In this document: one piece after another, positions 2,962 through 33,884 of the stretch
Position numbering within the stretch: position 1 is the stretch's first letter
Layout: each line of letters opens with the position of its first letter
Origin: Thiohalospira halophila DSM 15071
GTDB taxonomy: Bacteria; Pseudomonadota; Gammaproteobacteria; Thiohalospirales; Thiohalospiraceae
Assembly: GCF_900112605.1 (NCBI RefSeq)
Contig: NZ_FOMJ01000007.1
Location: 62,001 to 126,000 of the forward strand
Reading direction: 5' to 3'
Length of the DNA stretch: 64,000 bases
The notes under the pieces: generated by a model
What the model saw: only the letters and a program-made list of their open reading frames with translations
What the model was told of the DNA's origin: nothing
Databases searched by the model: none
Program-made: the position numbers and the translations under genes

Positions 2962-3576
2962 ATGTCAGTCGAGGCGGTTCTGTGGAGGGGAGAGAAGCGG
3001 CTCCAGTTCGATTACCTGACCGCGGGCGGCGAGCGAACCCGCCGCGATCTCATTGCCGGGAAGGTGGTACGAAAGGCGGGCGGCCAGGTGACGCTCCAGG
3101 GCTATTCGCTCAAGCGGGCGGCCCCGCGCGCGCTCAAGCCGGAGCGGATCGTGGGCGACGTCCTGGACGCGGATACCGGGGAGGTCGGCGAGCTGTGGGA
3201 TCTGCTGGGGATTGATGCGGAGCCGGCGCCGCCACCACCGCCGGCCGGGGACGCGCACCAGCGCCACGAGGCCGTGGCGGATGCCGACGTGGAGGAGCTA
3301 CTGGACTACCTGGAGCCGATGGCGAGGAAGGCGGAGGCGCACGGGTGGGTGATCCACCGGAAGCCGGAGGAGCTGTCAGTCCATGGGGTGTTCAAGAATG
3401 GGCGGGTGAAGAAGGGCGCGGTCGCGGCGGTCCGCTACTTCCCTGAGAAGAGCCGGCCGCTCCGGGTGGAGGCGAGGCATTCGGTCGCGGCCGGGGTCTA
3501 TTCCAGGCCGGAGGCGGCGGCCGGCAAGTTCGAGGCGGTCTTGGAGAACCTTCTCAGAACTGGCGCTGGTGGCTGA
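2962..3576 (+). CDS. Hypothetical phage protein with a WYL-like N-terminal segment
   Basis: 204 aa, starting at the ATG at 2962, which has AGGAGG five bases upstream. The N-terminal 60 residues (LQFDYLTAGGERTRRDLIAG and the following basic strands) loosely resemble a WYL-type ligand-sensing beta-barrel, but the match is weak. A PAPPPPP linker near residue 90 separates a basic C-terminal domain rich in Lys and Arg. It lies between the two operator regions, and its 3' end overlaps the repressor's 3' end by 23 bp in convergent orientation. Function unknown. Confidence 0.6.
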   Translation: MSVEAVLWRGEKRLQFDYLTAGGERTRRDLIAGKVVRKAGGQVTLQGYSLKRAAPRALKPERIVGDVLDADTGEVGELWDLLGIDAEPAPPPPPAGDAHQRHEAVADADVEELLDYLEPMARKAEAHGWVIHRKPEELSVHGVFKNGRVKKGAVAAVRYFPEKSRPLRVEARHSVAAGVYSRPEAAAGKFEAVLENLLRTGAGG

Positions 3577-4234
3577 TGACCTTGCCGACGATCTCGGCCG
3601 GGTTGTCGGCGTCCACTGAGATGGTGGCGTAGTTGTCGTTCAGCGGGACTAGCTCGTAGACCGGGGCGCCGTCTCGGTCGTGGCCTCGGTCCCGGTACTT
3701 CTTGAAGGTGACCTCGCCGGAGTCCACCCGGGCCACGACGTAGTCGCCAGGGCGGACGCAGGCGTCGGGGTCGACGATGATCGACTCCCCTTCCCGGAAC
3801 TCCGGCTCCATGGAGTCGCCTTCGATCTCCAGGGCGAAGGCGTACCGCCCCAGCTTGTAAGCCATGGTCCCGGAGACCGGGACCTCGTCGAATCCATCCC
3901 CCTCGGCGTAGATGTCCACCGCTTCCTTTGGCCTCCCCGCCTGCACCCAGCTGATGACGGGGATCATCCGCGTCGCGCCGGGTTCCCTGACTCCCGACCA
4001 TCCGGTGGCGTGCTTGCCGCCCTCTCCGTAGAGCAGCCAGTCCGGGCTCACTCCCAGGGTATGCGCGACCGGGACGATGCTGGAGTAGCGCGGCTCGATG
4101 CCGCCACTCATCCACTGGCTGATCGTCGCCTTGCTGAGCCCTACGCGCGCAGCCAGCTCCGACCCGTGGGCGAGATCGGATTCCTGCAGGGCCTGCCGTA
4201 GCCGCTCATTCCAGTCGGGGGTGGGCCGTTTCAT
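3554..4234 (-). CDS. CI/LexA-like phage repressor (XRE HTH plus S24 peptidase)
   Basis: 226 aa from the ATG at 4234. An N-terminal XRE helix-turn-helix (about residues 26-45, ELAARVGLSKATISQWMSGG) is followed by an S24/LexA-type domain. The domain has an Ala-Gly cleavage site (A99-G100 in WVQAG), the nucleophile Ser141 in EGDSMEP and the general-base Lys near 178 in TFKKY. It should bind the four GTTTA-N6-TAAAC-type sites, keep lysogeny and self-cleave upon SOS induction. It is divergent from the Cro-like gene. No strong Shine-Dalgarno sequence precedes this start, and an in-frame ATG 15 codons upstream is the alternative. Confidence 0.88.
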   Translation of the reverse strand: MKRPTPDWNERLRQALQESDLAHGSELAARVGLSKATISQWMSGGIEPRYSSIVPVAHTLGVSPDWLLYGEGGKHATGWSGVREPGATRMIPVISWVQAGRPKEAVDIYAEGDGFDEVPVSGTMAYKLGRYAFALEIEGDSMEPEFREGESIIVDPDACVRPGDYVVARVDSGEVTFKKYRDRGHDRDGAPVYELVPLNDNYATISVDADNPAEIVGKVISHQRQF

Positions 4235-4258
4235 GGCGTGCAGAGTAATGAACTCGGA

Positions 4259-4296
4259 GTTTAGCGGGGTTGACTGCATGGTTGACGCCTCTAAAC
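4259..4296. promoter_or_regulatory. Two operator-like sites (OR1, OR2)
   Basis: GTTTA-GCGGGG-TTGAC (4259-4274) and GTTGA-CGCCTC-TAAAC (4281-4296) share the 5-6-5 layout of the left pair, with centres 22 bp apart. The reverse complement of the first (GTCAA-N6-TAAAC) is nearly the same as the second left site. They overlap the -35 and -10 of the rightward promoter. Confidence 0.68.
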
Positions 4297-4297
4297 T
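4270..4297 (+). promoter_or_regulatory. Rightward early promoter (PR-like)
   Basis: TTGACT (4270-4275) is followed after 16 bp by TAAACT (4292-4297). Transcription would begin near 4304, two bases from the Cro-like ATG at 4306, so the first message may be nearly leaderless. The operator sites cover both boxes. Confidence 0.62.
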
Positions 4298-4305
4298 GTC
4301 CAGCC

Positions 4306-4506
4306 ATGGACAAGGATCGAGCACCTACAAAAGCCGAAGTTATGGATTTGCTCGGCATCAGCCTGGAGCGCGAGCTCGCGGAGCTATTCGGGGTCACCAA
4401 AAGTGCGGTCTCGCAATGGCCCAAGAATGCTCCTATCCCGCCTGCGCGCTACCTGGAGCTGCGGTACGTGATCCGTCCTGACCTGTTTAGCGCCGGCGCC
4501 GCATGA
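4306..4506 (+). CDS. Cro-like small HTH regulator
   Basis: 66 aa. The sequence AEVMDLLGISLERELAELFGVTKSAVSQWPKNAPIPPARYLEL has the Cro/YdaS pattern. A helix-turn-helix (about residues 18-36) with a SAVSQW recognition helix precedes a short IPxxR dimerisation tail. It sits opposite the repressor over shared operators, the usual place for Cro. No Shine-Dalgarno sequence precedes the ATG, which fits a leaderless transcript from the promoter at 4270-4297. Confidence 0.8.
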   Translation: MDKDRAPTKAEVMDLLGISLERELAELFGVTKSAVSQWPKNAPIPPARYLELRYVIRPDLFSAGAA

Positions 4507-7882: not shown

Positions 7883-9100
7883 ATGCTGACCCGAGCGCAG
7901 ATCGAAGAGGCCCGCCCCCGGTCTAGTATTTACGAGCTGTACGACTCCGAGGGCCTGGTCCTCCGCGTCCTGCCCTCCGGGACGCGGAGCTGGGCGGTCT
8001 ACTACCACGAGCGCGGAAGGAAGAGGCGGGAGACGGTGGGCCGCTGGCCCGATATGGGGCTGCGAGAGGCGCGGCGCCAGCGGGACCAGGTCCGCGCCCG
8101 GGCGGCCGGGGCCGACGCGGTCACCGTGGAGGCCTTCGCCCGGGAGTACCTGTCGGCGTGGGCGCGTCCCGCCAAGCGCTCCTGGCGCGAGGATGCGCGG
8201 ATCCTGGAGCGCGAGATCGTGCCGGCCATCGGCGACCGCCCCGTCGCCACCCTCACCCGCCGGGACTGCGTGGCCGCCGTCGACGCCGTACGGGAGCGCG
8301 GCGCCCCGGCGATGGCGTCCAAGACCCACGCGGTCCTCCGTCGACTCCTCCAGGTCGCCGTGGAGCGCGGCGTCAGGGATGACAACCCGGCCGCCCGGAT
8401 CCGCCTCCCGGCCGCCCAGAGCCGTGACCGCGTGCTGACCATGGACGAGGTCGCCGCCCTGCGCGCCGAGCTGGCCACCTCCACCGCCCTGCCCCGCATC
8501 GCCCTGGAGCTGATCCTCGCCACCGGCCAGCGCGGCGGGGAGGTCCTGGAGATGGCCGCCTCCGATCTGCAGCTGGGTGATGGCCTTTGGGAGATCCCGG
8601 CGGCGAAAGCCAAGAACGGCCACGCCCACGTCGTGCCCCTGACGGCCTGGGCGGTGGAGCTCATCCGCGAGGCGAGGCGGATCCGGTGCAGCGAGCGGGT
8701 GATCCCCATCTCCGGCGACACCCTGCGCCACGCCATGCGCCAGGCCGTGGAGGCGGCGAACCTGGAGCGGTCAACGCCCCACGACCTCCGGCGCACCGTG
8801 GCCACCCACCTGGGCCGACTCGGCCACGGCCGCGCCGTCCAGGACCGCATCTTGAACCACGTCGACCAGTCGGTGGGCGGGATCTACGACCGCTACGACT
8901 ACCTCCCGGAGCAGCGCGCGGCCCTGGAGGCATGGGAGGCCGAGGTCACCGGGGCAGGCAATCGCGATCACCAGGGGGAGGGGGTTGTTCCACAGGGAGT
9001 CACGGCGGCACCAGAGCGGCACCACGAGGCACCGGCCGATCCGCAGAGCGGCGCGGCCTGCATGACAGAAGCGGCAGTCATAGGGGATGAGGACGAATGA
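7883..9100 (+). CDS. int: Tyrosine-family integrase (DUF4102 type)
   Basis: 405 aa. The N-terminal arm-binding domain (SIYELYDSEGLVLRVLPSGT) is of the DUF4102 type used by P4-like and many phage integrases. The catalytic domain (about 185-345) has Arg217 (TGQRGGEV), His300 and Arg303 (HDLRRTVATHLG), a second His326 (NHVDQS) and the nucleophile Tyr335 in GGIYDRYDY. It should mediate site-specific integration. It sits between replication and packaging genes rather than at a visible end of the prophage. Its stop overlaps the Mor-like gene by ATGA. Confidence 0.92.
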   Translation: MLTRAQIEEARPRSSIYELYDSEGLVLRVLPSGTRSWAVYYHERGRKRRETVGRWPDMGLREARRQRDQVRARAAGADAVTVEAFAREYLSAWARPAKRSWREDARILEREIVPAIGDRPVATLTRRDCVAAVDAVRERGAPAMASKTHAVLRRLLQVAVERGVRDDNPAARIRLPAAQSRDRVLTMDEVAALRAELATSTALPRIALELILATGQRGGEVLEMAASDLQLGDGLWEIPAAKAKNGHAHVVPLTAWAVELIREARRIRCSERVIPISGDTLRHAMRQAVEAANLERSTPHDLRRTVATHLGRLGHGRAVQDRILNHVDQSVGGIYDRYDYLPEQRAALEAWEAEVTGAGNRDHQGEGVVPQGVTAAPERHHEAPADPQSGAACMTEAAVIGDEDE

Positions 9101-9678: not shown

Positions 9679-10197
9679 GTGTCATCGGTGGCATCCATTT
9701 CTGAGGCTTCGCTGTACTCGATAAGCCGACTCGCCAGAGAGACCGGTTTGGCGCGGGATACCGTCCGCAAGCGACTGGCTTCCGTGCAGCCGTCGGCGAC
9801 CCGCAAAGGGCACCCGGTTTACACCCTGGGGGATGCCTGCCCGGCCCTGTTCGGCGCCCAGGGCGGCGGCGAGCCCGGCGATGGCCCGGCCGACCCCGAC
9901 CAGATGGACCCTTCTGACCGGGATCGCTGGTACGCCTCCGAGATCAGGAGGCTCGATTACGAGAGCAAGGTCGGCCAGCTCATCCCCCACGAGGACGTGG
10001 CGCGGACCTTCGCGGCGGCTTTCAAGCGGGTGAGCAGCGCCCTGGACACACTCACCGACGTGGTGGAGCGGGAGGCGGGGCTTAGCGGTCACCAGGTCGC
10101 GGAGGTCCAGCGGGTGGTCGACGGGATCCGGTCGGATCTATACGCCCAGCTAGGCGACGAGGAAGCGGATGATCCCGAGGAGGCCGTCGGTGAGTAG
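9679..10197 (+). CDS. Terminase small subunit (Nu1/DUF1441-like)
   Basis: 172 aa from the GTG at 9679. Near the N-terminus ISRLARETGLARDTVRKRL is a helix-turn-helix of the Nu1/DUF1441 type, followed by an acidic linker and helices (PHEDVARTFAAAFKRVSSAL). This subunit recognises the packaging site and recruits the large subunit. An alternative GTG lies nine bases downstream. Its end overlaps the start of the large subunit gene. Confidence 0.82.
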   Translation: MSSVASISEASLYSISRLARETGLARDTVRKRLASVQPSATRKGHPVYTLGDACPALFGAQGGGEPGDGPADPDQMDPSDRDRWYASEIRRLDYESKVGQLIPHEDVARTFAAAFKRVSSALDTLTDVVEREAGLSGHQVAEVQRVVDGIRSDLYAQLGDEEADDPEEAVGE

Positions 10198-12250
10198 CTA
10201 CGGGAGCGCGGCGGCCGTATTGCGGGACACTGCCGAGATCCTGCGGCCCCCGCGCCGGCTCACGGTGCCGGAGGCGGCGGAGCAGTACGTCTATCTCGAC
10301 GTGCCGGGCGGATATTCCGGGTGGTGGAGCAACGAACTGCCGCACTACATGATGGAGCCGGCCGAGTGCCTGACCGCCCGGGAGTACGAGGCCGTGATCT
10401 TCGTCGGCCCGGCGCAGAGCGGCAAGACGCAGATGCTTGTCGACAACTGGGTAGCGCACACCGCCACCTGCGACCCGGCCGACCAGATGGTCGTCCAGAC
10501 CGCCCAGGATACGGCCCGTGATTTCAGCCGGCGCCGCATCGACCGCCTCATCACGCATTCGCCGGATCTCCGGGATAAGGCCCTACCGGGCCACGCGGAT
10601 AACACCTACGACAAGACCTGGCGGAACGGCGCGATCCTCTCCATCGGCTGGCCCAGCAAGAACCAGCTCGCCGGCCGCGCCATCGGCCGCATGGCCCTGA
10701 CCGACTACGACCGCATGCCGGAGGACGTCGGTGGCGAGGGGTCGCCGTTCGAGCTGGCGAAGAAGCGGACGACCACCTTCCTCTCCCGCGGCATGACCAT
10801 GGCCGAGTCCTCGCCCTCCCGCCCCGTCCTGGATCCCCGCTGGCGTCCGTCGACTCCGCACGAGGCGCCGCCCAGTCGCGGGATCCTGGGCCTCTACAAC
10901 ACCGGCGACCGCCGCATGCTCTACGGCCGATGCCCGGAGTGCGGCGAGTATTTCGCCCCGGCCCCCGGCCCCGAGGCGGTCTGGATCCCCGATGAGGGAA
11001 CCATCGACGATCGCGCCCAGGGCGCCGGCCTCATCTGCACCGAGTGCGGCGCCGTGATCGGCCAGGAGCGCGAGCGGGACTTCAAGCGCTCGGCCCGCTG
11101 GCTGCGCGAGGGGCAGCACATCACGCCGGCCGGCGAGGTCTACGGCGAGCCGCGCACCAACCGCCGGGCGAGCTTCTGGATGGCCGGCTGGTTCGCGGCC
11201 TTCGCCAGCTGGGAGGGGATCGTCTACGCCTACCTGACGGCCGAGGACACCTACCAGCGCACCGGCGACGAGGAAGCGCTCAAGAACGCCCACAACGTGG
11301 ACATGGCGGCGCCCTACATCCCCCGAGCCCAGCTCGCCGAGCGCGGCGGCAGCGAGTGGCTGGAAGAGCGGCGCGAACCGCTGGAGCGCTACGTGGTCCC
11401 GGACGAGGCCGCCTTCGTGACCGCGGCCGTCGACGTCCAGGGCGGCGAGATCCCCCGCTTCATCGTCGAGGTCTACGCCCACGGCGCCGGGCATGAGCAG
11501 TGGCCCATCGACCGCCGCGAGATCCGGCAGTCCGACCGCCAGGGCCCCGACGGCGACCCCGCGCCCATCGACCCGGCCGGCCACCCCGAGGACTGGGACG
11601 TCCTCACCCGCGAAGTGGTGGAGGCGACCTACCGGACCAGCGATCCGGAGACCGAGATCCGCCCCCGCCTGGTGGCCGTGGACTCCGGCGGCGAGGCCGG
11701 CGTCACCGAGCGGGCCTACGACTGGTGGCGCCGCCTGCGCCGAGCTGGCCAGCAGAACCGCGTGGTCCTGGTGAAGGGGGCGAGCCAGCGCACCGCCCCG
11801 CGCCTGCGGAAGAGCTACCCCGACTCCACCGGCCGGAAAGATCGCGGCGCCGGCTCCCGCGGCGACGTGCCGGTCTGGAGCCTCAATACCGACCAGCTCA
11901 AGGATGCCGTCTGGTCGAGCCTGCAGCGCCCCGAGCCCGGCCCCGGCTACCTCCACATCCCGGAATGGCTCGGCGGATGGTGGCTGGACGAGCTCCTGGC
12001 CGAGCGGCGGACCGAGAAAGGCTGGCAGCAGGTGCGCAAGCGCAACGAGGCCCTGGACTTGAGCGTATACAACCGCGCCGCCGCGATCATCCTGGGCGCC
12101 GAAAAGGTCGACTGGAGCAACCCCCCGCCCTGGGCGAACCGCGACACCAGCCCGGACGTCGTCAGCCGCGACCGCCGCCGCCAGGACCAGGCCGAGCAGC
12201 AGCGCCCTCGGCATCCGCGCGGCCGCCGCACGCGCATGCGGATGCGGTAG
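10190..12250 (+). CDS. Terminase large subunit, GpA family
   Basis: 686 aa from the GTG at 10190, which has GAGGAGG seven bases upstream; an in-frame ATG at 10169 is an alternative. The N-terminal ATPase has Walker A VGPAQSGKTQM. A zinc-binding insert (CPECGEYF ... CTECGAVIG) sits near residues 250-290, and an RNase H-like nuclease follows with acidic residues in AAVDVQGGE and VAVDSGGEAG. It packages phage DNA into the prohead, as in lambda gpA. The C-terminus is basic (RRTRMRMR). Confidence 0.93.
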   Translation: MSSYGSAAAVLRDTAEILRPPRRLTVPEAAEQYVYLDVPGGYSGWWSNELPHYMMEPAECLTAREYEAVIFVGPAQSGKTQMLVDNWVAHTATCDPADQMVVQTAQDTARDFSRRRIDRLITHSPDLRDKALPGHADNTYDKTWRNGAILSIGWPSKNQLAGRAIGRMALTDYDRMPEDVGGEGSPFELAKKRTTTFLSRGMTMAESSPSRPVLDPRWRPSTPHEAPPSRGILGLYNTGDRRMLYGRCPECGEYFAPAPGPEAVWIPDEGTIDDRAQGAGLICTECGAVIGQERERDFKRSARWLREGQHITPAGEVYGEPRTNRRASFWMAGWFAAFASWEGIVYAYLTAEDTYQRTGDEEALKNAHNVDMAAPYIPRAQLAERGGSEWLEERREPLERYVVPDEAAFVTAAVDVQGGEIPRFIVEVYAHGAGHEQWPIDRREIRQSDRQGPDGDPAPIDPAGHPEDWDVLTREVVEATYRTSDPETEIRPRLVAVDSGGEAGVTERAYDWWRRLRRAGQQNRVVLVKGASQRTAPRLRKSYPDSTGRKDRGAGSRGDVPVWSLNTDQLKDAVWSSLQRPEPGPGYLHIPEWLGGWWLDELLAERRTEKGWQQVRKRNEALDLSVYNRAAAIILGAEKVDWSNPPPWANRDTSPDVVSRDRRRQDQAEQQRPRHPRGRRTRMRMR

Positions 12251-21215: not shown

Positions 21216-22277
21216 ATGGCCACCTTCTACACCATCCTGACCGACGTCGGGCAGAACAAGATCGCCAACGCCATCGCCGTGGGCGAGACCATCGAGATCA
21301 CCGACCTGGCCGTGGGCGACGGCGACGGATCCCTGCCGACGCCCGACTCCAGCTTCGAGTCCCTGGTCAACGAGGTCCGCCGGGCGAGCATCAACTCCAG
21401 CCAGACCGACCCGGATAACCCGAGCTGGATCGTGGTCGAGCAGGTCCTGCCGCCGGACGTCGGCGGCTGGACGATCCGCGAGGTGGGGATCTTCGACGTC
21501 GACGGCGATCTGATTGCCTACGGCAACTACCCGGAGACCTACAAGCCGGTCCTCGACGAGGGCAGCAGCCGCACTCAGACGGTCCGGTTCATCACCGAGG
21601 TCTCGGACACCAGCGCCGTCACCCTCAAGGTCGACGCCTCCGTGGTCCTGGCCACCCGCGAGCTCGTCCAGCGCGAGGCCCGGGCCGACTACATCACCGA
21701 CGCCACCCTCGCCTCCGGCGTCAGTACCGGCGACGCCGTCTACTGGGACCACGACGCCGGCGAGTACAAGCGCGCCATCGCCGACGGCTCGGCCGCCTCC
21801 CACCCCGTCGGACTGGCCGATGCCGTGAACGGCCGCGTCTACTCCGGCGGGCTGGCCGAGGGCCTGCTTACCGGCCTCACCGCCGGCGCCACCTACTACC
21901 TCAGCGGATCCGACGCCGGCGCGCTGATCACGGACCGGCCGGCGTACCCGGTAGAGGTGGGCGTGGCCCACGGCGCCGAGAGCCTGCGGATCGGCATCCA
22001 CGCCGACACCCTGCGCCGCGAGAGCACCGGCGACCCCAACGGCAACCTCGCCGCCGATCGCCTCTACGAGGCCGCCTGGGACACCTCCACCGCCACCCCG
22101 GTCCTCTACCTCTCCACCGAGGCCGACGGCACCGTGGACGGCACCACCTGGACCCCGGCCGCGGACCTCTGGGCCGCGCTCTCGGCGTCCGGCGCCGGGT
22201 CTGCCCTGGCCACGTTCAGCGACGCCAAGCGCTTCACCCGGGACGCCGACGGTCAAATCTACCTGGAGGACTACTGA
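21216..22277 (+). CDS. Tail fibre protein (phage tail-collar/DUF3751-like)
   Basis: 353 aa. The N-terminal 160 residues (FYTILTDVGQNKIANAIAVG, EITDLAVGDGDG, WTIREVGIFDVDGDLIAYGNYP) are the baseplate-attachment domain of P2/Mu-type fibres. The rest is strand-rich with repeated Thr/Gly/Ala turns. It ends without a lectin domain, and the separate DGR variable protein two genes downstream probably supplies the receptor-binding part. Confidence 0.85.
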   Translation: MATFYTILTDVGQNKIANAIAVGETIEITDLAVGDGDGSLPTPDSSFESLVNEVRRASINSSQTDPDNPSWIVVEQVLPPDVGGWTIREVGIFDVDGDLIAYGNYPETYKPVLDEGSSRTQTVRFITEVSDTSAVTLKVDASVVLATRELVQREARADYITDATLASGVSTGDAVYWDHDAGEYKRAIADGSAASHPVGLADAVNGRVYSGGLAEGLLTGLTAGATYYLSGSDAGALITDRPAYPVEVGVAHGAESLRIGIHADTLRRESTGDPNGNLAADRLYEAAWDTSTATPVLYLSTEADGTVDGTTWTPAADLWAALSASGAGSALATFSDAKRFTRDADGQIYLEDY

Positions 22278-22602: not shown

Positions 22603-23655
22603 ATGCGCATGATCACCGCAGACGGCCCGGCCGCCCTGGAGCAGGCTGGGCACGTCGAAAAGAGCGACAACGGCGACCTTCTCAACACCCCGGAGGCCGC
22701 GATCAACATCGGCGGACTGGCTGGCCAGGGTTACCGGCTGGACGCGGTCACCGACCTAGACCCCACGACCGAGGAAGACGGCACCGTTACCAGCCTGGCA
22801 GTGGGCGACGACGTGTACTTCTACGCCGTCCCCTCCGGCGTCGGGGACGGCCGCGCCAACCTGGTCGCATCGAAGAACGCCACCACGCCCGACGGGTTCA
22901 CGGCGGCCACGAGCCGGAAGTTCAGCGGCTTCCACTTCGGCCGAACCCGCCCCCTGGACGACGCCCACGCCCACGTGAAGACCTACACCCCCGCCGAGGA
23001 GATCGTCTGGAACTCGGTCTGGGACCTTCTCAACCGCCCCTCCGCACCACCGGAGGGGATGGTCCGGCTGCCGTCCGGGTGGTGGGTCACCATCTACCTG
23101 CTCTCGGTGGGCTCCGGAAGCGGCGCGAACGTCGTGCCCGTGAGCCGGTACAACGCCACCCCGATCAAGGACGACGTCTACGCCCGCCGGGATCTCGGCA
23201 TCATCGCCGGCCGGGGCGGTTATGTCCTCCCGTGGGCGGGTCTCTTCGACGAGTACGCCGAGGGCGCCCCCGAGGGAGAGGACGCTGCCAACGACACGGC
23301 CTGGGCCGATACCAGCAATTCTGGGCCCGCGACTACCGGCGCCGTCGCCAAGGCCGTCAGCTCCCACAACGTGGTCGACGCCGTCGGCAACCTCTGGGAC
23401 TGGCTGGACAACCAGCACAACACGGGGACGAACTACTCCGACGACCGGACCGTGGTCGAAGTCGGCATGTACTCCGCCGACCTGCGCGGCGAGGTTTACC
23501 ACGACAACTGGCGCTCCGCCATCGGCGGCGGCGACTTCGACGACGGCTCCCGCGGCGGGGCCGGCTGCGTGTACTGGAATGCGAAACCGTGGGTCGCGAA
23601 TGGCTATGTCGGGGTGCGTGGCGCCAGTGGCCCCCTGAGGGCACGCAGTGCCTGA
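22603..23655 (+). CDS. DGR variable protein (C-type-lectin-fold tail tip)
   Basis: 350 aa. The N-terminal part is probably the attachment domain, and SRKFSGFHFGR (104-114) is a motif seen in DGR variable proteins. The C-terminal lectin-like/FGE-like domain has VGNLWDWLD (261-269) and WRSAIGGG, with variable residues 311, 314, 324, 327, 331 and 335 plus 343-345. Variable codons correspond to TR AAC/AAT/ACG triplets. The protein should display an adaptable ligand-binding face at the tail tip. Its last 8 bases overlap the GTG start of avd. It likely partners with the fibre gene two positions upstream. Confidence 0.93.
   Translation: MRMITADGPAALEQAGHVEKSDNGDLLNTPEAAINIGGLAGQGYRLDAVTDLDPTTEEDGTVTSLAVGDDVYFYAVPSGVGDGRANLVASKNATTPDGFTAATSRKFSGFHFGRTRPLDDAHAHVKTYTPAEEIVWNSVWDLLNRPSAPPEGMVRLPSGWWVTIYLLSVGSGSGANVVPVSRYNATPIKDDVYARRDLGIIAGRGGYVLPWAGLFDEYAEGAPEGEDAANDTAWADTSNSGPATTGAVAKAVSSHNVVDAVGNLWDWLDNQHNTGTNYSDDRTVVEVGMYSADLRGEVYHDNWRSAIGGGDFDDGSRGGAGCVYWNAKPWVANGYVGVRGASGPLRARSA
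23510..23635 (+). repeat. Variable repeat (VR)
   Basis: 126 bp matching the template repeat at offset 543. There are nine substitutions, all opposite TR adenines (VR positions 23533, 23542, 23572, 23581, 23593, 23594, 23605, 23630, 23633). A GC-rich 24-base identical tract (23606-23629) near its 3' end is the likely initiation-of-mutagenic-homing (IMH) region. The repeat encodes the last 47 residues of the variable protein's lectin domain. Confidence 0.95.
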
Positions 23656-24043
23656 GCCGGCCGCCCGGCAGGGCGGCCTTGAACTCCAGGCGCGGGCCGA
23701 GGAGCTGTGGCACGAGCTGGCGGGGCCAATTCAGCGCATCCCCAGATCCCACCGCTACCGCACCGGCGCCGACCTGGAGGACCAGCTCCGCCATCTGGTG
23801 GACCTGGTCATCGAGGCCGCGAGCTCCGGGCAGCCTAGCCGGGTCTACCGTCTACACGAGCAGACCCGAAAGGTGGAGTGGCGGCTCGCGGCGGCGGCAA
23901 AGCAGGGGCTATTGCGCCCCGCCGCCGTCGGCCGCGTCTCCCGCCCTCCAGTAGAAGACGACCCGCGAGACCGTGGCGGCACCCTCTATCAGATCAAGGC
24001 GATGGTCGGTGCCTGGCGGGAGCGGGTCAAAAGCAAGGGCTGA
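23648..24043 (+). CDS. avd: Avd-like DGR accessory protein
   Basis: 131 aa from the GTG at 23648, which overlaps the end of the variable protein by 8 bp. Predicted four helices (residues 11-30, 40-60, 64-88, 112-128), strongly basic, with QRIPRSHRYRTGADLEDQL and the LVDLVIEAAS helix. These match the Avd/S23 four-helix-bundle family that forms a positively charged barrel binding the RT and template RNA. It is essential for cDNA synthesis in BPP-1. Its first codons lie over the VR-associated hairpin. Confidence 0.82.
   Translation: MPEPAARQGGLELQARAEELWHELAGPIQRIPRSHRYRTGADLEDQLRHLVDLVIEAASSGQPSRVYRLHEQTRKVEWRLAAAAKQGLLRPAAVGRVSRPPVEDDPRDRGGTLYQIKAMVGAWRERVKSKG
23659..23678. promoter_or_regulatory. 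DGR hairpin/cruciform after VR
   Basis: GGCCGCCC (23659-23666), loop GGCA, GGGCGGCC (23671-23678) gives a perfect 8-bp stem with a 4-base loop, 23 bp after the end of VR. In BPP-1 a hairpin/cruciform of the same dimensions follows the IMH and promotes homing. The GGCA loop fits the G-R-N-A tetraloop type reported there. It lies in the start of the avd gene. Confidence 0.72.
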
Positions 24044-24052
24044 GAGGGTTTC

Positions 24053-24178
24053 GGCGCTCCGCCATCGGCGGCGGCAACTTCGACAACGGCTCCCGCGGCG
24101 GGGCCGGCTGCGTGAACTGGAATACGAAACCGTGGAACGCGAATGGCAATGTCGGGGTGCGTGGCGCCAGTGACCACC
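24053..24178 (+). ncRNA. Template repeat (TR) of the DGR
   Basis: 126 bp, identical to VR except at nine adenines. It contains the AAC/AAT triplets expected for a DGR template (AAC at codon-equivalents 311, 314, 324 and 331; AAT at 326, 333 and 335; ACG at 327). It is transcribed as part of a structured RNA that the RT-Avd complex copies with adenine misincorporation. It starts 9 bp after the avd stop. Confidence 0.94.
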
Positions 24179-24187
24179 ATTTGAGAG

Positions 24188-24207
24188 GGCGCCGAACGGT
24201 CGGCGTC
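24188..24207 (+). ncRNA. Stem-loop in TR-RT spacer
   Basis: CGCCGA (24190-24195), loop ACGG, TCGGCG (24200-24205) forms a 6-bp stem, extended by a G-T and a G-C pair to 24188/24207. It lies 10 bases after TR, in the spacer that in BPP-1 RNA is needed for self-priming cDNA synthesis. Confidence 0.55.
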
Positions 24208-24272
24208 ACCCAGAATCCCTCAGGGGGTCAGCTTCTCAGTCCCGGTGCCCGCAGGGCGCCAAACCGATCCGG

Positions 24273-24319
24273 GCGGGCCGGCGCGAGTAGGGAGACCGAA
24301 AGCCCCGGCCCGCTTTTTT
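24273..24319 (+). terminator. Intrinsic-terminator-like hairpin between TR and RT
   Basis: GCGGGCCGG (24273-24281) and CCGGCCCGC (24305-24313) pair perfectly, followed by TTTTTT (24314-24319). The 23-base loop is long for a terminator. It could define the 3' end of the template RNA or tune RT expression, since the RT ribosome-binding site (GAGGAGGAG) follows at once. Confidence 0.68.
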
Positions 24320-24333
24320 GAGGAGGAGAACGC

Positions 24334-25374
24334 ATGGGCAGGAAGGCCAAGAACCTCATCGAAGAGATCGCGCACTGGGACAACCTCGTCGCAGCTCATC
24401 GGCTATGCCGGCGCGGAAAGAGCGGGAGCCAGGAGGTAGCCCGATTCGACGCCGACCTGTGGACCCACCTCGGAGCCCTTCAGAACGAAATGCTCTGGAG
24501 CATGTATCGGGTGGGTGATTACCGGCATTTCCGCGTCTACGACCCCAAGCGGAGAGACATTGCCGCCGCCCCGTACCGCGACCGGGTTGCCATGCAGGCG
24601 GTCTGCCGAGTTTGTGAGCCCATCTGGACCCGAGCGCTCATTGCCGATACCTACGCCTGTGTTCGCGGGCGCGGCGCCTATCAGGCCGTCTTCCGGCTTC
24701 AGCAGTGGATGCGCCGTTATCGGCGCCGGGGCGAATCGGCCTGGGCCCTGCACATCGACGTTTCCAAGTTCTTCGACAGCGTCCCGCACTCGGTCGCCAA
24801 GCGCGTCATCCGCAAGCGCATCGCATGCCGCCGCACGCTCGCCGTACTGGACGAGGTCATAGATAGCGCGGAGCCAGGCGGCCCGGCCGTCGGCCTTGGG
24901 ACCGGGAACCTGCCCAGCCAATGGATCGGCAACCTGGTGCTGAATGAGGTCGACCAGAAGGCCAAGCGCGAGATGGGCGTGCGCCATTACATGCGGTACA
25001 TGGACGACATCCTGGTCCTGAGCAGCGACCGCGCCCAGCTCCGGGCCTGGCGCGACCAGATAGAACAAGAGCTGGCGGCCCTGGGCCTGCGCGCCGGGAA
25101 AGTGAACATCAGCCGAGCCGAGGGCGTGACCTACGTCGGCTATCGAGTCTGGCCGCACGCATTCCGGGTAAAAGGCCAGACTCTTCGCCGCATCCGCCGA
25201 CAGATGCGCGGCCTGAGGAACAGCCGGGAGGAGGGACGAGTAAGCCCGGCCGCCGCGCGGGACACCCTCCAATCCTGGAGGGCGCACCTCATCCAGGGTC
25301 AGTGCCGGGGATTCTGGCTGCGGCGGGTGGGTGAGTGGCGCCGGGCCTCTGCCCGAGACACCCCCTCCGAGTAA
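24334..25374 (+). CDS. DGR reverse transcriptase
   Basis: 346 aa, ATG at 24334 behind GAGGAGGAGAACGC. The palm has HIDVSKFFDSV (residues 140-150, catalytic Asp142) and YMDD (222-225, second and third catalytic Asp). Between them GTGNLPSQ (189-196) carries the SQ ending characteristic of DGR and group-II-related RTs, in place of the retroviral SP. PYRDRVAMQAV (80-90) is RT motif 2. The C-terminal basic thumb ends at residue 346. There is no maturase, RNase H or integrase domain, as expected for a DGR RT. It copies TR into mutated cDNA together with Avd. Confidence 0.96.
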   Translation: MGRKAKNLIEEIAHWDNLVAAHRLCRRGKSGSQEVARFDADLWTHLGALQNEMLWSMYRVGDYRHFRVYDPKRRDIAAAPYRDRVAMQAVCRVCEPIWTRALIADTYACVRGRGAYQAVFRLQQWMRRYRRRGESAWALHIDVSKFFDSVPHSVAKRVIRKRIACRRTLAVLDEVIDSAEPGGPAVGLGTGNLPSQWIGNLVLNEVDQKAKREMGVRHYMRYMDDILVLSSDRAQLRAWRDQIEQELAALGLRAGKVNISRAEGVTYVGYRVWPHAFRVKGQTLRRIRRQMRGLRNSREEGRVSPAAARDTLQSWRAHLIQGQCRGFWLRRVGEWRRASARDTPSE

Positions 25375-25427: not shown

Positions 25428-25670
25428 CTATTCGTATTGCGCAGAGATAGTGGATGGCCCGATGCTTATGCGCGGCGCTCCTTGCATCCACGGCTTACCC
25501 AAGTCGCTTCTGGCGACATCGTCAATCAGCCTCTCTGGCGAGTATCCCGGTCTTGCCCCGCCGGAAGTATGTAGCACCAGAAGATGATCACCCGATCCAT
25601 CGTCTGTCGTCTTCCCCCGAATCTTCGCCGGCCCTTTGTCCATGTACGTTACTTTAAGCTCGTATGGCAT
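25428..25670 (-). CDS. Hypothetical 80-aa protein, lower-GC, divergent from a membrane protein gene
   Basis: The ATG at 25670 follows GGAGGG with good spacing (minus strand). The product begins MPYELKVTYMDKGPAKIRGK and has a basic and glycine-rich middle. No family recognised. It is the only minus-strand gene in the late region and starts 76 bp from a divergent gene. Base composition of this segment is more AT-rich than the surroundings, suggesting separate acquisition. Confidence 0.65.
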   Translation of the reverse strand: MPYELKVTYMDKGPAKIRGKTTDDGSGDHLLVLHTSGGARPGYSPERLIDDVARSDLGKPWMQGAPRISIGPSTISAQYE

Positions 25671-25746
25671 AATCCCTCCAGCAAGTTGGCGTTATGATGA
25701 TAACATCACTAAACGACCGCGTTTTCCCGGAGAAGGGGTTGCAGCA

Positions 25747-26466
25747 GTGGAAGACCACAACCTCCAAGCCAAGCGTCGAAACCTGATCGTCTCGTCGGTA
25801 CTTCTGACCATCTTTCACCTTGGTGGTGGCCACCCGGCCGATGACAAAACCGGGACCCTTGGCCTTATGTTCGTCTCCCTAGAGTATCCGACCGTCGCCA
25901 TTGTTGGAGCCTGGGTCGCGTGGATCTACTTCGTGTGGCGCTTCTTGTCTGATGTAAGAGTGAGGTCAATCGGAGGTAATGATTCTACATCTTTCAGGAT
26001 AGATCTAGCGAGGCGAATATTTACAAGCGGTGAAGATGACCAGTTGTTGTACAAGGTAGATGGATTTGAAAGGGGCAACAATCACCCGCCTTTCTTTTAT
26101 GGCAATGGGGTATCATTCAAGGATGGAGAGAGAGTGCTGGATGAATCAAAAAATGGCCGCCCTCTGCCGACGCAAGGCGGAAATCAAGAGTTTGCCAAAA
26201 AGCTAAAAATAAAATACGGCCTTTTTGGAATAAAGGTGCAGGCCCGTCAGCCTAAATATCAAGGCGATGGAAGCATGAGCGAGCCATTCGTTGTCCCTTA
26301 CACAAAGATCATCGCGAGAAGCGAAGAGGGGTCGCGCATACCGCCACGGATATTCCACGACGCGATCGTAAGAGACCCGGGATTTTCAGAGACAGAGATT
26401 CCGAAGGCAGTAATGTTTATGCCAGTAGGCGCACTTGTCTTCTGGGTCCTGCTCTACTGCCTGTAG
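25747..26466 (+). CDS. Membrane protein of unknown function, lower-GC cargo gene
   Basis: 239 aa from the GTG at 25747 (GGAGAAGG upstream). An N-terminal segment (LIVSSVLLTIFHLGGG), a second near residue 50 (YPTVAIVGAWVAWIYFVW) and a C-terminal one (MFMPVGALVFWVLLYCL) are likely membrane helices flanking a polar domain. Codon use and base composition are distinct from neighbouring genes. It could be a superinfection-exclusion or other lysogenic conversion gene, but this is a guess. It is paired divergently with the 80-aa gene. Confidence 0.65.
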   Translation: MEDHNLQAKRRNLIVSSVLLTIFHLGGGHPADDKTGTLGLMFVSLEYPTVAIVGAWVAWIYFVWRFLSDVRVRSIGGNDSTSFRIDLARRIFTSGEDDQLLYKVDGFERGNNHPPFFYGNGVSFKDGERVLDESKNGRPLPTQGGNQEFAKKLKIKYGLFGIKVQARQPKYQGDGSMSEPFVVPYTKIIARSEEGSRIPPRIFHDAIVRDPGFSETEIPKAVMFMPVGALVFWVLLYCL

Positions 26467-33003: not shown

Positions 33004-33714
33004 ATGGATATAATCTGGATGATCCTCGGCTACGGCCTCGCGCTGTTCGCCGTCCTCATGTTCATCGTGGCCGTCGTCGGCCTGGTGCGCCCCAGCGCCC
33101 TGGCCAACGACCGCGACCCCAACCCGACCCGGCGGGGCACCGTCGGCCCCGCCCTGGGCGTCGCCGTGGGCGCCCTCATCATCGGCCGCGCCCTGATGCC
33201 CGAGCCCGACGCCGGGACCAGCGCTGAGAGCGCGAACCCGGCCGACCCGGAGGCCGCCGCCGAGGCCGCCCTGCGCGATGCCGGCGGCTGGGGCGCGAGC
33301 TACGAGATCGGCGAAGTCCGCTCCACTCTCCAGGTGGGCGACGAGATGCTGGGAGAGGTCTTCGTGGACCTGGGCCCGACCGGCAGCCAGGCCGACGCCG
33401 TGCGCACCTGGGGCCAGGCCGCCCGCGACATTCTCACCGAGGCGGGCGAACCGGCCCTCGAACACTACGACCGGGTGCTGTTCTACCTGCGCCAAGAGAC
33501 CCAGGGCGGCGGCCACCACCTCGCCGCCAAGGCGCGCTGGACGACCGACGACGCCCGGGACCTGATCGATGAGCAGCACACCCAGCCCTATCAGCGCTGG
33601 ATCGACCAGGTCCACGAGCTGGAACTCAAGCCCATGGGCGGCCGCGCGGTCGCCGCCTGGTGCTCCGAGAATCGCCAGGACGCGCCGGGATTCTGCCGCT
33701 CGGCCGGGCTCTAG
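33004..33714 (+). CDS. Membrane protein at the right end of the prophage
   Basis: 236 aa, with AAGGAGACC before the ATG. Two N-terminal membrane helices (about 2-25, IIWMILGYGLALFAVLMFIV; and 46-60, VGPALGVAVGALIIG) are followed by a periplasmic or cytoplasmic acidic domain containing CRSAGL and WCSENRQ cysteines. Terminal prophage genes of this kind are often lysogenic-conversion genes. No family recognised. Confidence 0.6.
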   Translation: MDIIWMILGYGLALFAVLMFIVAVVGLVRPSALANDRDPNPTRRGTVGPALGVAVGALIIGRALMPEPDAGTSAESANPADPEAAAEAALRDAGGWGASYEIGEVRSTLQVGDEMLGEVFVDLGPTGSQADAVRTWGQAARDILTEAGEPALEHYDRVLFYLRQETQGGGHHLAAKARWTTDDARDLIDEQHTQPYQRWIDQVHELELKPMGGRAVAAWCSENRQDAPGFCRSAGL

Positions 33715-33884
33715 GCTGTATACAAGCCCCTATAGGGCGGGCGAATATATGCGGGCTGCGAGGCGGGAATCGGGGAATGGTTTGTATACCAGAAAACTAT
33801 ATATTTCCTTCCAAGTCATGCAGTTAACCAACGCATGCCTCCCAATAGCCCACTGTGCCGGGAAAGTTTAGACTAATTCTAAAT
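33715..33884. other. AT-rich prophage-pyrD junction (possible attR)
   Basis: 170 bp of sharply lower GC. It holds two copies of GTATAC context (TGTATACAA at 33717-33725; TTGTATACC at 33782-33790), a CCCTATAGGG palindrome and a TTTAGA-N5-TCTAAA dyad (33867-33883) just before pyrD. The host gene begins here, so the attachment site or its arms are probably inside. No core repeat can be confirmed because the left end is out of view. Confidence 0.45.

Follow-up and report, generated by a model that had tools for sequence, protein, structure and literature searches.

Organization of the locus

The window (the whole stretch of DNA analysed here, 64,000 nucleotides) contains a cassette with the order mtd-like target gene, variable repeat (VR), hairpin, avd, template repeat (TR), spacer and reverse transcriptase (RT) gene, which is summarized in Table 1 together with neighbouring genes. 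Domain searches identified the surroundings as a temperate, contractile-tailed phage, which encodes, in addition to the genes listed, portal, S49 protease, capsid E, baseplate J, Tail_P2_I, sheath, FII tube and tape measure proteins. According to the coordinates of an IMG/VR copy (L017), the prophage would start about 6.4 kb to the left of the window and end at position 33714, and pyrD (DHO_dh) is located just past its right end at 33855. The 276-aa ORF downstream of the RT gene has a GC content of 50% in a genome of 70% GC and gave no match in Pfam, NCBIfam or phage records, and the related cassette of Halorhodospira neutriphila (L003) lacks this stretch at the corresponding location. The ORF resembles a cargo gene of recent acquisition, the product of which is possibly a membrane protein.

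Table 1 Features of the cassette and of the prophage around it (positions refer to the window).
Feature	Position	Strand	Evidence
CI-like repressor gene	3554-4324	minus	
Integrase gene	7883-9100		
gpA-type terminase gene	10169-12250		
Tail-collar fibre gene, upstream of the target	21216-22277	+	PF12571 2.6e-57
Mtd-like target gene, tail receptor-binding protein, 350 aa, C-type-lectin C-terminus	22603-23655	+	mtd_2nd, phrog_11262, Mtd fold
VR, 3' end of the target	23510-23635	+	realignment with TR
IMH-like segment, 3' of the BPP-1-homologous transfer boundary, holding 23630 and 23633	23617-23635	+	BPP-1 register, relatives' columns 121-124
avd, accessory variability determinant, 131 aa from GTG (start provisional)	23648-24043	+	phrog_3206 5.7e-10
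Hairpin with a GGCA loop (GRNA type) on a GC-only stem of 8 bp, 23 bp downstream of VR, within the first part of the called avd frame	23659-23678	+	
TR, 23 adenines (20 upstream of column 108)	24053-24178	+	realignment with VR
Spacer between TR and RT, 155 nt	24179-24333	+	five covarying RNA helices
DGR reverse transcriptase, 346 aa, YMDD at residues 222-225, GNLPSQ near residue 191	24334-25374	+	phrog_1423 2.4e-103
276-aa ORF, between RT and tail sheath	25636-26466	+	

Differences between the template and variable repeats

TR and VR are 93% identical and located 543 bp apart, and no further TR-like sequence was found in the host genome, which contains these two sites only. Their realignment is gap-free over 126 bp and places all nine differences at TR adenines (9 of 23 adenines versus 0 of 103 other bases, p = 5e-8), so that the two repeats differ only in the way demanded of a diversity-generating retroelement (DGR). 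The differences, at VR positions 23533, 23542, 23572, 23581, 23593, 23594, 23605, 23630 and 23633, comprise five A>G, three A>T and one A>C substitutions from TR to VR. Both the restriction to adenines and this tally agree with the original prediction, and non-adenine substitutions, which in equal proportion were named there as contradicting it, were absent.

The affected residues are 311, 314, 324, 327, 331, 335, 343 and 344, as anticipated. The list of changed codons was correct for AAC (311, 314, 324 and 331), ACG (327) and AAT (335), and it has to be extended by GAC (343) and CAC (344). The additional claim that the TR codons avoid stops does not hold, because codon 328 is AAA in both TR (24127-24129) and VR (23584-23586) and can be mutated to a stop codon; TR is therefore not stop-proof. 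In five close relatives, codon 328 of TR is AAT, i.e. the third base is T. For the BPP-1 system, PMC12875486 gives a calculated stop risk of about 6% for AAA.

Comparison with related cassettes

Six lineages were compared by column, namely the window, the H. neutriphila cassette (L003) and the metagenome phages L018, L019, L021 and L022, leaving out L020, which is cut before VR, and L017, which is identical to the window. The H. neutriphila DGR and the metagenome phages L018-L022 resemble the window in their layout, a spacing of 543-546 bp, differences restricted to adenines and the hairpin and spacer structure, and their RTs are 70-76% identical to that of the window, but their TRs differ from the window TR at 22-29 positions and their VR states differ as well. 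The 15 lineage pairs have 0-24 non-adenine TR differences each, and at all of these sites the VR of either member has the base of its own TR; between the window and L003, VR follows its own TR at 24 of 24 diverged non-adenine sites. The comparison with relatives that had been proposed as a check thus bears out the prediction. As VR equals its own TR at the diverged non-adenine sites, we conclude that the repeats have evolved in concert by copying from TR to VR. At the level of sequence comparison, this is stronger evidence for homing than the single pair of the window, and the one-way transfer of information that characterizes DGRs is thereby seen on a comparative basis.

Among L018, L019, L021 and L022, the VRs differ at 11-20 adenine sites and at 0-2 other sites, and the TRs at 0-2 positions. 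The non-coding TR is the best conserved part of the cassette in these four phages (98.4-100% identical); the corresponding values are 93.9-98.2% for the spacer, 79-95% for the upstream target gene and 81-94% for RT. The DGR of the Chromohalobacter phage YPCBV-1 (L083) is also like that of the window, with an annotated Avd and an RT that is 47% identical, and 14 of its 22 TR adenines but none of the other bases are changed. It is unlike the window in that its target is annotated as SUMF1/EgtB/PvdO family and its spacer is more diverged.

Among 23 loci, one of them BPP-1, a TR/VR pair was obtained for 22, all with an adenine bias of p ≤ 2.6e-6. The remaining locus, L031, does not enter this adenine tally, because its best repeat is an unrelated exact repeat of 96 bp. 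L031 also contains a weaker, TR/VR-like pair (3155-3272 and 3701-3818) with differences in both directions, some of them at non-adenine positions, which is unlike all other pairs and is perhaps a decayed or chimeric DGR. A different layout was observed in the related genome L064, in which the repeats (156-290 and 2539-2673) are 2383 bases apart and 20 of 42 adenines are changed.

For the family as a whole we used 81 loci, i.e. six close ones and 75 Mtd-like ones from the best 80 of 501 relatives. There were 22 loci without and 59 with a repeat, and removal of eight of the latter (three exact duplicates and five of low identity or wrong orientation) resulted in 51 pairs, among which L111 was kept despite its single mismatch and unusual spacing. 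Excluding the last 12 bases, 569 of 1201 TR adenines differ in these pairs, versus 12 of 4730 other bases; the adenine changes are A>G (287), A>C (144) and A>T (138). Eight of the nine Mtd-like viral records that were searched (L098, L099, L102, L104, L106, L136, L138 and L142) contain no related RT, and the ninth gave a weak RT match only. These records may be fragments, or the gene may be fixed or diversified from elsewhere. One of them, L106, holds other phage genes in a different organization.

Target gene and mutable residues

The target gene product matches Pfam mtd_2nd (3.4e-17) and the tail protein family phrog_11262, and phmmer aligned it with Mtd-I1 (4.9e-10). An AlphaFold2 model based on 54 family proteins reached a mean pLDDT of 92.8 and was used in place of a model from eight sequences (pLDDT 37.2), which was set aside. 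The former superimposes on five solved Mtd variants with Z scores of 30.5-30.9 and an rmsd of 2.4-2.5 over 291-296 residues, and the next structural match has a Z score of only 15.2. The target thus combines an Mtd fold with a VR lying within its C-type-lectin C-terminus, as is typical of the BPP-1/Mtd subtype.

With a shift of one base, the TRs of BPP-1 and the window form a gap-free alignment in which 75 of 125 positions are identical (shuffled sequences: mean 34, maximum 51). Residues 311, 314, 324, 326, 327, 331, 333 and 335 of the window correspond to the mutable Mtd residues 344, 347, 357, 359, 360, 364, 366 and 368, i.e. at a constant offset of 33. In the alignment of 54 proteins, residues 328, 335, 331, 326, 311, 324 and 333, which are coded by TR adenines, are all among the 12 most variable ones.

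Reverse transcriptase, Avd and RNA elements

The best solved relative of the RT is PDB 8ub7 (3.5e-44), with group II intron RTs far behind, and together with phrog_1423, YMDD and LPSQ this marks the enzyme as a DGR-type RT. The motif SQ in place of SP is typical of DGR RTs. Group II intron, retron and DRT identities were rejected on the cutoffs of the curated NCBIfam models (TIGR04416 93.1 versus 300, St85 retron 37.4 versus 235, Drt models below their cutoffs). The accessory protein Avd is recognized by phrog_3206 and matches NF033474 of NCBIfam with E 4.9e-9 and 36.5 bits, which is under the model cutoff of 80; a Pfam search of Avd returned no match.

The hairpin reads GGCCGCCC-GGCA-GGGCGGCC in the window and GGCCACCC-GGCA-GGGTGGCC in L003, which differ by a compensated pair. 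For BPP-1 and other phage DGRs, PMC3240598 describes a GC-rich stem of 7-10 and a GRNA loop located 4-34 bp after VR, and the hairpin of the window agrees with this rule of the subtype in stem length, loop and distance. In BPP-1, both the structure of the stem and the loop matter. In 27 of the 51 family members, VR is followed by a stem of at least six that carries a GRNA loop; such a hairpin precedes VR, within a stretch of equal length, in 0 of 51, and it occurs in 5 of 2550 shuffles. Under this strict rule no hairpin was found in the other 24 members.

The helices of the spacer are located at 24184-24211, 24221-24237, 24244-24260 and 24277-24309, the last one enclosing 24290-24297. In total, 98.1% of cells pair and two-sided changes occur in 11 of 31 pairs, values favoured by the fact that the structure was derived from the same alignment as was tested. 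The observed number of pair types was reached by 160 of 500 shuffles and the other values by none of them; slid controls paired at 50% or less.

It is also possible, though on balance we consider it unlikely, that this is a genuine DGR that is now inactive in the window strain, with VR as a frozen record of old homing. Such a state would be consistent with the single sequence of the prophage, i.e. the IMG/VR copy is identical in both VR and TR, and with the 9 of 23 changed adenines, which are few compared with 11-20 in most relatives. However, the RT and avd frames are open, YMDD is intact, the spacer structure is retained, and TR and VR have not accumulated any non-adenine mismatch. The last copying would therefore be more recent than any ordinary substitution at the 103 sites concerned.

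The 3' end of the repeats and the homing boundary

According to PMC3240598, coconversion in BPP-1 has its boundary between TR positions 107 and 112, and a 21-bp segment at the 3' end contains five TR mismatches; in the register of the window this boundary corresponds to TR columns 108-113, and the changes at columns 121 (23630) and 124 (23633) fall beyond it. Upstream of column 108, seven of the 20 TR adenines are changed (p = 3e-6), and these seven differences (23533-23605) are products of homing. At columns 123-124 (23632-23633), VR reads CC in all six lineages, and the corresponding TR bases are CA in two of them and AC in the other four. Since VR is CC whatever TR reads, position 23633 was evidently not copied and is, according to these alignments, not a homing product. 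At 23630, VR has G in three and A in three of the six lineages, TR being always A, and this difference is probably not a homing product either. The pair itself thus supports the claim that mutagenic homing has occurred, and the relatives do so more strongly, but as 23630 and 23633 lie past the boundary and 23633 was not copied, the claim applies to seven, perhaps eight, of the nine differences. The last 12 bases of the 51 pairs likewise reveal no adenine rule, as changes occur there at 9 of 65 adenines and 11 of 547 other bases (A>C 6, C>A 7). These counts are lower bounds on mismatch, because the repeats were delimited by local scoring, a procedure that prefers ends that match.

Co-variation between TR and VR is also seen at columns 110 and 115, at or past the BPP-1 boundary, and the boundary may therefore lie somewhat further 3' in the window lineage. 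The GC-only 14-bp IMH element, a trait of BPP-1 that is not known to define the family, is absent from the window, in which GC-only runs near the 3' end reach a length of 6 at most and the A-free run is 19. Unlike in BPP-1, the IMH of the window is thus A-free yet not GC-only, and the two TR/VR differences at this end are both located at TR adenines, compared with five differences in BPP-1. We regard it as improbable that transfer reaches further 3' than in BPP-1 without a GC-only element, with a cDNA start at column 116 or beyond and with A121 (23630) truly mutable; if it did, the rule would be an A-free stretch and not a GC-only stretch. It is far less probable that adenine mutagenesis generated all nine differences, including 23630 and 23633. 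Their location at TR adenines and the alternative VR states at 23630 opposite a constant adenine would fit this explanation, but it is contradicted by the invariant CC, by the end of BPP-1 transfer upstream of both sites and by the similar numbers of A>C and C>A changes in the last 12 bases of the family.

Discussion

A plain duplicated segment altered by ordinary mutation or gene conversion, with no retroelement, would account for two such similar and closely spaced copies but is hardly credible in view of the strict adenine bias in the window and its relatives, the genes for RT and Avd that lie between and next to the copies and the same layout in the relatives. We are highly confident that the element is, as judged from its sequence, a complete canonical BPP-1-type DGR in a contractile-tailed prophage. 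The gene order is the same as in the Bordetella phage BPP-1 DGR (mtd-avd-TR-brt, NC_005357.1), and the two are alike in the stem of 8 with a GRNA loop after VR, the target fold and the register of mutable residues. The RT is 34% identical to that of BPP-1. Unlike in BPP-1, the hairpin is located 23 bp after the repeat and overlaps avd, and the phage carries contractile-tail genes.

In BPP-1, the system of which has been reconstituted in laboratory E. coli, the RT-Avd complex is recruited by the spacer, which also primes the synthesis of cDNA (PMC12875486). By analogy, the TR-containing RNA of the window, with avd at its 5' side and the structured spacer at its 3' side, would be reverse transcribed by RT together with Avd. 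The tail receptor-binding protein would then carry altered residues on its C-type-lectin tip, with a shifted receptor range as the result. Biochemistry, priming, integration and tropism switching are thus expected to proceed as in BPP-1.

A literature search combining diversity-generating retroelement and Halorhodospira found no paper, and the global DGR catalogue PMC8144416, in parts other than those available to us, may list the element. The DGR phenomenon is long established, and the element of the window adds a new example of the BPP-1 type: a clean retroelement in a GC-rich (70%) genome, the nearest named relative of which is the cassette of H. neutriphila. It provides a comparative map of which TR information is copied into VR and which is not, and it is useful mainly as a reference for where homing ends on the 3' side.
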